IMG/VR virus record: IMGVR_UViG_3300025118_000148
Coordinates: 1 to 23,825 of that record
Source of the DNA: a virus
DNA: 23,825 bases
Direction: 5' to 3' (one strand)
The notes below the pieces were generated by a model. That model saw only the letters and a program-made list of their open reading frames with translations. It was not told where the DNA came from and did no database searches. The position numbers and the translations under genes are program-made. Below, in pieces: positions 21,491-23,825 of this stretch. The stretch's first letter is position 1; each line of letters starts with the position of its first letter.

Positions 21491-22909
21491 CTATCTGAAT
21501 CTTGATACGGGTATCAATTCTCTTTGATAATTGTCATTTCCTGCATAACCAAATTGATTAACCATCAAGTAAGTCAATGCCTTTATACTATGATTATACT
21601 TATCTCTTGGAACATTTCCAACCACCCCACCTTCACGGTTCATTTGCCAACTATAAACTCTGACCTGTCCGTCAAACGGATTTGGGGCTCCTCCGAACTC
21701 AGAAATCAACCCTTTACACTTGGGGTCCATTACAAGATTTGGCTCTTTGGTAAGTGGGTCAGCTTTAAGCATGGAGTTCATTCTTTCTATCCCGTCAATA
21801 ATTTTTACGGGCTGACTTAACATAGACAACCCTGACTCCTTAAACCAAATTTCCGTATTAGATGGCATTGCTCCTGCATGAGCAGTTCCTGCAATATCAA
21901 TAACACCTAACTTTTGAGTGTCTTTCCACCAATATCTATTTTTAGCAATGCTTACAATGTCCGATGCAACCAATTCTCTTTCATAAATTTCGTCAAACAC
22001 CTGCACTTGACCGTCAATAATATGACATACCTCAACTGCATAGGCAGATTCAGTAAGCCTTGAATATCCGGGGTCTACTGCAAGGTAAACAATCTCATCA
22101 GGGTCAAACTTAACTTCCCTCACATGAATATTCACATTAAATACTGGATGAACTAAACCACTAGGTGGACTAGGAACTCCTGCGACACGTTCATTAAACC
22201 ATTCCTCCGAATGTTCAATCTTCATTTTCTCTATTTCGGGGTCAATTTCTCCCAAAGGAAATATATGCGTATTAGTCCAAGTAGGTAAAGAAAAACTTTT
22301 AGCACTCTCTAATTTTTGAATGCTAGGGGACTGCCAAGAAGTAAACTGTTGGGGGTACCAACCAAGCGAACCCTCAAATGTTCCCTCCAAAAATACCCAA
22401 CCTCTCTTTTCAGCGACACGTTCCATTAATCTCCAATAACTTTCTTGGTCTAACTGCGAAGCCTCACAGGCAACAATACCCATAGGAGCCTCCATCGCAA
22501 GTTTTCTATAGTCGGTTGCAGACTTAGTTTTAATAATCAATGGTTTCAAGTTCTTGGACCCTACTGATATCTCTATATATCCGGGGTCAACCTGACGTGT
22601 GGCACGTTTAATTATCCCTAGCCTAGTAAAAGCATCCCCAAGATAATCAAATTCACCCCTAGTTCTCTCGTAATCTGCAGCAACTAGCCAATACACGGAA
22701 CCTGCTGCTTTATCTGGGTCCTCAACAATGTGACTCATTATTTTCTCGAACATATACATTGCTCCCAGATTAGATTTACCTGCTCTTACGCCACCTGCTA
22801 CTAACTTGAATCTAGCATCGTCATTGAGAATTTTAAGCTGTGCTTCAGTAGGCTTGTATTTTATGGCACTAAATAGGGCATCACGTTGTTCTTGCTGCAT
22901 GAGACACAT
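21491..22909 (-). CDS. terL: Terminase large subunit (ATPase-nuclease)
   Basis: The 472-residue product from ATG 22909 has both motor and nuclease signatures. Walker A: GGVRAGKSN at 39-47. Walker B/catalytic-carboxylate region: MGIVACEASQ with Glu149. Coupling segment near 170-180 (GWVFLEGTFEG). The RNase H-like nuclease contains Asp279 (YLAVDPGYS), Asp338 (GVIDIAGT) and a likely third acid Asp436 (NVPRDKYNHSIKALTYLMV). It drives DNA into the procapsid and cuts the concatemer. The frame stays open upstream to 23137, but that extension is encoded by the G-rich spacer, is composed of Gly/Val/Trp and has no family resemblance, so I reject it. ATG 22900 (starting MQQEQRD) is an alternative start. 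Neither has a clear ribosome-binding site. Usual family length is 450-600. Confidence 0.9.
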   Translation of the reverse strand: MCLMQQEQRDALFSAIKYKPTEAQLKILNDDARFKLVAGGVRAGKSNLGAMYMFEKIMSHIVEDPDKAAGSVYWLVAADYERTRGEFDYLGDAFTRLGIIKRATRQVDPGYIEISVGSKNLKPLIIKTKSATDYRKLAMEAPMGIVACEASQLDQESYWRLMERVAEKRGWVFLEGTFEGSLGWYPQQFTSWQSPSIQKLESAKSFSLPTWTNTHIFPLGEIDPEIEKMKIEHSEEWFNERVAGVPSPPSGLVHPVFNVNIHVREVKFDPDEIVYLAVDPGYSRLTESAYAVEVCHIIDGQVQVFDEIYERELVASDIVSIAKNRYWWKDTQKLGVIDIAGTAHAGAMPSNTEIWFKESGLSMLSQPVKIIDGIERMNSMLKADPLTKEPNLVMDPKCKGLISEFGGAPNPFDGQVRVYSWQMNREGGVVGNVPRDKYNHSIKALTYLMVNQFGYAGNDNYQRELIPVSRFR

Positions 22910-22989
22910 TTTAGCATAAAATTTTATATGGGGTAGTACCAATACAATAATAAAGCATAAACCACTAAGAACTACCCCCCCCACCTCCT

Positions 22990-23007
22990 GTCGCAGGTAA
23001 CTGCGAC
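22990..23007. other. Hairpin 1 in the G-rich stretch
   Basis: GTCGCAG (22990-22996) and CTGCGAC (23001-23007) are perfect 7-bp arms with a 4-base loop. It shares the outer stem GTCGC/GCGAC and flanking CCT and CA bases with hairpin 2. Confidence 0.8.
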
Positions 23008-23053
23008 CAACACCACCACCACCACCTACACCCCCACACACCCCCAGCCACCT

Positions 23054-23068
23054 GTCGCTTACAGCGAC
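23054..23068. other. Hairpin 2 in the G-rich stretch
   Basis: GTCGCT (23054-23059) and AGCGAC (23063-23068) are perfect 6-bp arms with a 3-base loop. It starts 64 bp from hairpin 1; the outer five base pairs are the same while the inner pairs differ in a way that keeps pairing. Confidence 0.8.
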
Positions 23069-23123
23069 CACAACCCACACCTCCACCCCCACACCACCAG
23101 TAACCCAGCCCCTGAAAGCTGTT

Positions 23124-23144
23124 GCAACTTGTCCCACAAGTTGC
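23124..23144. other. Perfect 9-bp inverted repeat
   Basis: GCAACTTGT (23124-23132) and ACAAGTTGC (23136-23144) flank a 3-base loop. It is not followed by a U-run in the minus-strand message, so it is not a standard terminator. It sits between the operator-like dyads and the G-rich stretch. Confidence 0.8.
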
Positions 23145-23169
23145 TCTATGTATCAGGCGAATTCAATTT

Positions 23170-23190
23170 TTAGAACGTTTGTTCTACTTT
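23170..23190. promoter_or_regulatory. Operator-like dyad, copy 1
   Basis: TTAGAAC-N4-GTTCTACTTT. The core TAGAAC-N4-GTTCTA is a perfect 6-bp dyad and includes GAAC-N4-GTTC, the core of the LexA/DinR box known in Gram-positive bacteria. It matches copy 2 at 19 of 21 positions, both differences being in the spacer. Confidence 0.6.
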
Positions 23191-23203
23191 ACATAACTAA
23201 AGA

Positions 23204-23224
23204 TTAGAACTTATGTTCTACTTT
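23204..23224. promoter_or_regulatory. Operator-like dyad, copy 2
   Basis: TTAGAAC-N4-GTTCTACTTT, 34 bp from copy 1 and 24 bp beyond the terS stop on the coding strand. The two copies are in the same orientation, and the shared flanking bases (TT on the left, CTTT on the right) show that more than the palindrome is conserved, which suggests a bound protein or a recent duplication. Confidence 0.6.
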
Positions 23225-23248
23225 GGGAACTAATGGGAATTATTAGGA

Positions 23249-23764
23249 CTATTTAGAGTCTTTTAAAGCCTCTTTGCTTGGGCTTTCGGGTAGATTTATA
23301 TTAATTAGGGCTTGAATTAGGCTCTTTGCTTGGTCGTCAATTGTGGCTTGATTTTTCTGTTCTCCGTATCGGTCAGGATATTTCTTAGACAACAGCCATT
23401 GACTATTACGACTCTTTACCTGCTCATTCTCTGCAGTCGTTAACTCCGTTAATTGCAATGCCTCAAACTCAGTAACAGCCTCTGCAACTGTATCATGTAA
23501 CTTTAGAGTTAATTGCTTGTATCTGTCACTAGGGTTTAGGTTCTTTGTATCTGTAACAGTATCTAGTAAATTACTAGTATCTGTATCTGTTTCTGTATCT
23601 AGTATCTGACGGCACTTCTCACCGAAACGGAGCCAACCACTAGCCACAGACTCAGAAACCCCACAGTGACGAATTATAGCAACTGTAGGGGGTAACCCAA
23701 GCCGTTCTATATCCCTCTTGATTAAGTCTATTTTCTTAGTATCTATTTGTAGCTTTCTAGTCAT
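23249..23764 (-). CDS. terS: Terminase small subunit
   Basis: The 171-residue product starts MTRKLQIDTKKIDLIKRDIE, with a helix-turn-helix-like segment at 25-47 (PPTVAIIRHCGVSESVASGW LRF read in two parts) able to bind DNA. A Thr/Asp linker (54-74, CRQILDTETDTDTSNLLDTV) and helices for oligomerisation follow, then the motif SQWLLSKKYPDRYGEQ (121-136), typical of terminase small subunits of the WLL..K.PDRYG kind. The tail is helical and acidic. It recognises the packaging site and recruits TerL. The ATG lacks a visible ribosome-binding site; the promoter ahead would give a leader of only about five bases, which could mean leaderless translation. Length is normal for the family (140-200). Confidence 0.85.
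   Translation of the reverse strand: MTRKLQIDTKKIDLIKRDIERLGLPPTVAIIRHCGVSESVASGWLRFGEKCRQILDTETDTDTSNLLDTVTDTKNLNPSDRYKQLTLKLHDTVAEAVTEFEALQLTELTTAENEQVKSRNSQWLLSKKYPDRYGEQKNQATIDDQAKSLIQALININLPESPSKEALKDSK
23547..23607. repeat. Cluster of GTATCT words inside terS
   Basis: Six exact GTATCT copies start at 23547, 23559, 23577, 23583, 23595 and 23602, with a GTTTCT variant at 23589. Spacing is 6 or multiples of it until the last. Two further copies lie at 23519 and 23739. In protein they encode the Asp-Thr-rich linker. Packaging sites (pac) of several phages lie within or near terS, so this array might be a binding site; simple codon repetition is the plain alternative. Confidence 0.55.
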
Positions 23765-23776
23765 AACTAATTATTC

Positions 23777-23805
23777 ATTTTAACAGTTATAAATTAATGG
23801 GTCAC
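23777..23805 (-). promoter_or_regulatory. Candidate sigma-70 promoter ahead of terS
   Basis: On the minus strand a -35-like GTGACC (23800-23805, 4 of 6 to TTGACA) is separated by 17 bases from TAAAAT (23777-23782, 5 of 6 to TATAAT), which is preceded by an extended -10 TG. Only 12 bases separate the -10 from the ATG, so the leader would be around five bases, agreeing with the absence of a ribosome-binding site. It may drive the late operon. AT-rich sequence produces such matches by chance. Confidence 0.35.
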
Positions 23806-23825
23806 TTTGGTTCTATTGCGTCTTA

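Follow-up and report, generated by a model that had tools for sequence, protein, structure and literature searches.

A bipartite element conserved with the large terminase gene is a candidate packaging site in a family of uncultured marine phages

The window, by which we mean the whole stretch of DNA analyzed (23,825 nucleotides of an IMG/VR virus record, with the late genes on the minus strand), contains a noncoding gap between the genes of the small (TerS) and large (TerL) terminase subunits, and the conserved core of this gap, as judged by sequence comparison, is a bipartite element at its TerL-proximal end (22907 to 22979, minus strand). We consider it probable, at roughly 60%, that the gap serves as a cos- or pac-like site, which terminase would recognize and cleave to initiate packaging, and we present the element as a candidate: its kind, a packaging site, is known, its sequence and arrangement are new, and we do not regard it as a proven cos or pac. 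Since virion ends are needed for the purpose, the packaging sites of uncultured phages are rarely identified; here, comparative analysis of sequences alone isolated a sharply defined candidate. The marine phage family concerned is large and has no close relative among named phages (the best TerL matches are at approximately 23 to 26%). Moreover, the pattern GGGGTANGNCTTR-N24-TACCCNTG provides a sequence tag with which such phages can be found and their genomes oriented.

The terminase locus and its noncoding gap

TerL (21491 to 22900, minus strand; phrog_2, E value of 1.3e-15) starts at the ATG at 22898 to 22900, a position fixed by three relatives (L014 to L016) that carry an in-frame stop two codons upstream of it. 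It follows that the GTG-extended frame reaching 23137 is noncoding and that the gap spans 22901 to 23248, so that the 339-bp interval without a supported gene, which the sequence-only reading had described between terS and terL, is confirmed and grows to 348 bp; a TerL N terminus running through the gap is excluded by the same stops. On the other side lies a TerS-like gene (23249 to 23764, minus strand), which adjoins TerL in relatives and has a weak profile match to phrog_1482, a terminase small subunit profile matched in 6 of 6 aligned relatives (best E value of 1.5e-4). The layout with the gap is common to all window-group relatives that cover it. A TG-N-TAAAAT box stands just before the start codon of both TerS and TerL (window positions 23764 to 23825 and 22908 to 22913, respectively), and neither gene has an evident Shine-Dalgarno sequence in the window, unlike some early genes of G018.

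The two matching dyads, the perfect 9-bp hairpin, and the G-rich tract with two hairpins that had been pointed out in the gap are all present and exceed chance expectation. In particular, the 9-bp hairpin GCAACTTGTGGGACAAGTTGC occupies 23124 to 23144, the other two hairpins are GTCGCAGTTACCTGCGAC (22990 to 23007; 7-bp stem) and GTCGCTGTAAGCGAC (23054 to 23068; 6-bp stem), and the dyads TAGAACGTTTGTTCTA (23171 to 23186) and TAGAACTTATGTTCTA (23205 to 23220), two copies of TAGAAC-N4-GTTCTA and thus of the GAAC-N4-GTTC type, sit in 21-nt copies that are 90% alike. The gap holds 9 perfect stem registers of at least 6 bp, a count that includes alternative registers of single hairpins, compared with a mean of 0.45 in Markov shuffles; 9 registers were reached in 0 of 1000 shuffles, a stem of at least 9 bp occurred in 0.6% of them, and neither was found in any of the 65 other tiles of the window. 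On the TerL-sense (minus) strand, the G-rich, C-poor tract (22971 to 23115; 145 nt) has a base count of 79 G and 14 C, and no 80-nt stretch elsewhere in the window is as G skewed as the one it contains (G minus C of 43, compared with a mean of 3.9 and a standard deviation of 6.1). Both dyads resemble Gram-positive LexA boxes; LexA/SOS operators were rejected as an explanation, the gap dyads being restricted to the window subgroup and the matches elsewhere being single and scattered.

Conservation of the gap among relatives

A TerL search returned 32 loci at 76 to 100% identity, and a search with the TerL alignment returned 521 relatives, 80 of which were kept. According to TerL identity to the window, we distinguished group 1 (the window type, 83 to 100%), group 2 (54 to 55%), and group 3 (the distant group, 49 to 51%). 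The hairpins and dyads are altered or lost between relatives in group 1, and at 88% TerL identity the hairpins already differ or are missing: besides the contigs nearly identical to the window, the 9-bp hairpin is kept only in L020, the 6-bp one is present in L020, and the 7-bp one is present in L020 and L008, the latter two being different or absent elsewhere. The window and the two contigs nearly identical to it each have two dyad copies, G018 has one, and the wider group has none. Conservation of these features in related terS-terL gaps, which had been proposed as a check, was thus limited to the closest relatives for the dyads and to a few relatives for the hairpins, and we rejected the hairpins or dyads as the functional core for want of conservation. 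Related genomes lacking all the elements had been named as evidence against a site; the hairpins and dyads are indeed mostly missing, but the G-rich composition is conserved and the two-block element described below persists even in the distant group.

Group 1 gaps have a C-rich left part and a G-rich right part, and their last 80 nt before TerL are conserved; the G-rich tract is conserved in composition and not in sequence, and in gaps such as that of L014 the tract is kept as a G/T stretch free of C, while hairpins are absent. Group 2 has a gap of this type directly before TerL, even with other small genes between the gap and TerS, and in both groups the GC skew at the gap switches from C rich to G rich. 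Group 3 has no TerS-TerL gap, and the element lies instead upstream of TerS, where several of its genomes have their most G-skewed stretch, containing the same blocks A and B. A G-quadruplex reading was dropped, G-runs being scarce in group 2 gaps as judged from the gap sequences.

A two-block element at the TerL-proximal end

The element overlaps only in part the features listed by the sequence-only reading, which had missed it. It comprises block A (GGGGGTAGTTCTTAG; 22965 to 22979, minus strand; consensus GGGGGTAkGkCTTrG), a spacer of unconserved sequence (22937 to 22964, minus strand), and block B (CTACCCCATATAAAATTTTATGCTAAAATG; 22907 to 22936, minus strand; consensus TACCC-TGACAG-AATTTTT-NN-TAAAA), and blocks A and B carry arms in inverted orientation, GGGGTAGT/ACTACCCC, with GGGTA and TACCC. 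The end of block B, TAAAAT (22908 to 22913, minus strand), stands 7 nt before the TerL ATG and is a possible −10 hexamer of a putative leaderless promoter; a TANAAT hexamer ends 6 to 8 nt before this ATG in most group 1 and group 2 lineages.

Among 60 non-redundant copies from the distant group, many columns of block A (GGGGGTAtGgCTTg) and block B (TACCCnTGACAGaATTTTT...TAAAA) are near invariant, the columns of the pattern itself being inflated because part of this set was selected by the pattern; the same blocks are seen in the copies added from loci chosen by TerL. The spacer columns of these copies mostly carry 0.1 to 0.5 bits and contain little C. The distance between the blocks in group 3 is 23 nt in nearly all loci and 24 nt in two, and the window spacer is approximately 5 to 6 nt longer. 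A full-length nucleotide profile of the group 3 element gave no significant match in the window (best E value of 4.4, at another place), which we attribute to this longer spacer. The window was then scored with separate block A and block B matrices, built from distant relatives only. The block A matrix placed the window site, at 22979 to 22965 and −79 from the TerL ATG, at rank 1 of 47,650 positions. Furthermore, block A is found at −78 to −82 of TerL with rank 1 to 4 in almost all group 1 and group 2 genomes, the exceptions being represented by G017, with its best match elsewhere in the gap, and G045 (rank 72); in nearly all window-group genomes, it is found at −78/−79 with rank 1 or 2. With the block B matrix, the site has rank 3 of 47,650 in the window and rank 1 in G002, and it is weak in group 2. 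The block A of group 2 (GGGGGTATAGCTTAG, e.g., in L098 and L104) resembles the 5′ end of bacterial tRNA-Ala genes; a tRNA search found none in the window.

Linkage of the element to TerL

A scan of the whole IMG/VR collection with the pattern yielded 74 matches, compared with approximately 3 expected by chance (our estimate, which assumes 2.9 million contigs with a mean length of approximately 20 kb). This TerL family is encoded 723 to 2920 bp downstream, on the same strand, in 70 of the 74, and the remaining 4 records end too soon. Among 29 group 3 loci picked by TerL alone and having at least 2.3 kb of upstream DNA, 25 have the element by profile match, never doubled or inverted, and in 4 it is absent within 3 kb. 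The element is single copy in 11 of 13 long contigs and never occurs on the opposite strand; at blastn sensitivity, it had no match in 50,697 named phage records. It adjoins the terminase genes and is conserved with them, as a cos site should be.

TerL is 45 to 90% identical across representatives, and TerS is 22 to 60% identical within group 3, with no detectable similarity between groups. Since TerL retains this identity while TerS is divergent or non-homologous, the element appears to be inherited with TerL and not with TerS; its position relative to TerS varies, being on one side or the other, and in some cases inserted genes precede it. In 43 of 46 group 3 loci, the interval from the element to the late genes is enriched in short repeats, and several group 1 genomes have ATTCYNA-type repeats in the TerS-side part of the gap; both are candidate TerS sites.

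Contig ends

Of the 52 whole contigs that contain the element, 17 have their start no more than 410 nt to the left of it, compared with 3.4 expected, and the 1 kb to the right of it holds no contig end, compared with 8.2 expected. This pattern is compatible with packaging initiated at the element and proceeding in the direction of TerL; the excess may also be caused by assembly failure in the G-rich tract, or by contigs without terminase genes going unrecognized as viral. Contigs ending in the gap from the TerS side numbered 0 of 19, a sample too small to use. The ends of the long contigs of groups 1 and 3 are scattered, and many of these contigs pass through the element and are not phased there, which is compatible with headful packaging or concatemers and not with a strict cos in pure virion DNA. 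The two contig ends of G022 (L025 and L027) overlap within TerL but differ, being approximately 83% and 92% identical to the window protein, which suggests a mixed-strain assembly.

Proposed function and rival explanations

The data support well the earlier suggestion of a cis-acting site, and of the functions proposed with it (packaging, replication, or late gene control), packaging is the likeliest; what did not stand is its starting point, as the hairpins and dyads that prompted it are unconserved and the conserved part is the element formed by block A, spacer, and block B. In packaging initiation, terminase would grip blocks A and B, and TerL would cut the concatemer in or near the spacer, the sequence of which would for this reason be free to vary, with translocation then running towards TerL. 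TerS would dock elsewhere, on repeats specific to each lineage, the G-rich tract to the left of the element could act as an auxiliary flank, and in the window lineage the end of block B may double as the −10 box of a leaderless TerL promoter. In that lineage, the element lies between TerS and TerL because a different TerS gene stands upstream of it. Against packaging we counted the spacer that is 5 to 6 nt longer in groups 1 and 2, together with the weak block B there, the 4 of 29 distant-group loci without the element, and the absence of any recognized HNH gene beside the terminase genes.

A more specific proposal, which we advance tentatively and hold at somewhat less than even odds, is that this packaging site is read mainly by TerL: bipartite and with a nearly fixed spacer, it would have been inherited with TerL while unrelated TerS genes were exchanged on either side, and specificity would be split between a conserved core read by TerL and interchangeable repeats read by TerS. 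If confirmed, the site would have stayed conserved with TerL while TerS was replaced wholesale, which bears on the evolution of terminase specificity.

In lambda-like phages, cosQ, cosN, and I2, on which TerL acts, are conserved, and cosB, bound by TerS, is variable (PMC4669245). The locus examined here is similar to this cosQ-cosN-I2-cosB arrangement in that the terminase genes adjoin the site, repeats lie next to a conserved core, and the arms are in partial 2-fold symmetry; the conserved core set against a divergent TerS may be analogous to the parts acted on by TerL and bound by TerS, respectively, and the unconserved spacer could be the cut region. However, we claim no sequence similarity, the window group has a different order with respect to TerS, and the assembled contigs are unphased at the site; the scattered ends of the long contigs, which continue through the element, do not point to fixed cohesive ends. 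In P22, the pac measures 22 bp and lies within the TerS gene; pac sites are considered to be recognized by TerS, and TerS is more diverse than TerL (PMC9611059). The element may be comparable to the pac sites of headful phages (P22 and SPP1), in which packaging runs onward from a single recognition site near the terminase genes: it is single copy, and the scattered contig ends are compatible with permuted genomes; different from P22, the site lies outside both terminase genes and follows TerL rather than TerS.

The main rival, which we judge rather unlikely, is late-operon control, in which the element would be a promoter or regulator-loading site, bound by RNA polymerase and a conserved regulator, that switches on the terminase and structural operon. 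It retains some plausibility because the group 3 element precedes the first late genes, between divergent early and late operons, and because the TANAAT hexamers just upstream of TerL in most group 1 and group 2 lineages suggest a leaderless transcript; in some group 2 genomes, a terminator-like hairpin with a T-run follows the upstream gene. Like the late promoters of tailed phages, the element lies upstream of the late operon, in one copy (as is possible for a single late operon) and with near-fixed spacing, but it has no canonical −35/−10 within it. In particular, the column statistics of the 60 distant-group elements gave no TTGACA and TATAAT approximately 17 nt apart within the element: the block B position before TGACA is random (0.02 bits), the nearest TAAAA comes approximately 12 nt after TGACA, and there is no sigma-70 layout, while a separate TTGAC box, located approximately 30 nt further downstream, is enriched in part of the distant group (11 versus 1.1). 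Moreover, the window TerS, upstream of the element, would be excluded from such control, and a promoter would not usually extend over approximately 65 bp, with two blocks held at a nearly constant distance.

The flip of the GC skew at the gap in groups 1 and 2 and the repeats beside the element could also be taken for a phage replication origin, with the strand switch and the repeats as initiator and unwinding region; we regard this as improbable, given that skew near divergent operons is predicted by gene orientation, that the DnaC/IstB-like ATPase and winged-helix genes are located elsewhere, and that the element remains with TerL upon a TerS swap. Less credible still is a structured RNA or RNA-level signal arising from hairpins in the TerS-TerL transcript, since the hairpins, strong in the window, are unconserved, no covariation is seen beside the invariant arms (position 7 pairs with position 37 in 32 of 60, compared with 30.6 in shuffles), and an Rfam search returned no family at the gathering score, its single match being at chance level (E value of 0.92). 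An attP-like attachment or recombination site, to which the bipartite structure, the inverted arms, and the tRNA 5′-end likeness of group 2 block A (a lead only) could point, is the least probable reading, as neither a tyrosine nor a serine recombinase (PF00589 and PF00239) was found in 11 long genomes, a result that we counted towards packaging.

Host lead and variation within the gap

The first genome scan of a prophage-based host search found no relative, and the second found distant TerL on Chloroflexota metagenome-assembled genome (MAG) contigs. These TerL relatives (L169, L170, and L171; 45 to 48%) lie on Chloroflexota/Dehalococcoidia contigs of 82 to 253 kb, and one search detected TerL relatives in 3 of the 393 genomes it covered from this class. 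Since none of these contigs carries the element, a Chloroflexota host is a weak lead.

Two kinds of variation were observed in the gaps. Among L005, L029, L032, and L018, read on the TerL-sense strand, near-identical gaps have the central hairpin segment within the G-rich tract replaced, as if by recombination, and the replacement segment of L029 resembles that of the more distant L018. The gaps of L088, L093, L096, and L106 have a C-rich or pyrimidine-rich left half and a G-rich right half, and they carry differing simple repeats (CACCCTG, CTTTCTT, and GATAATG) at the same place.
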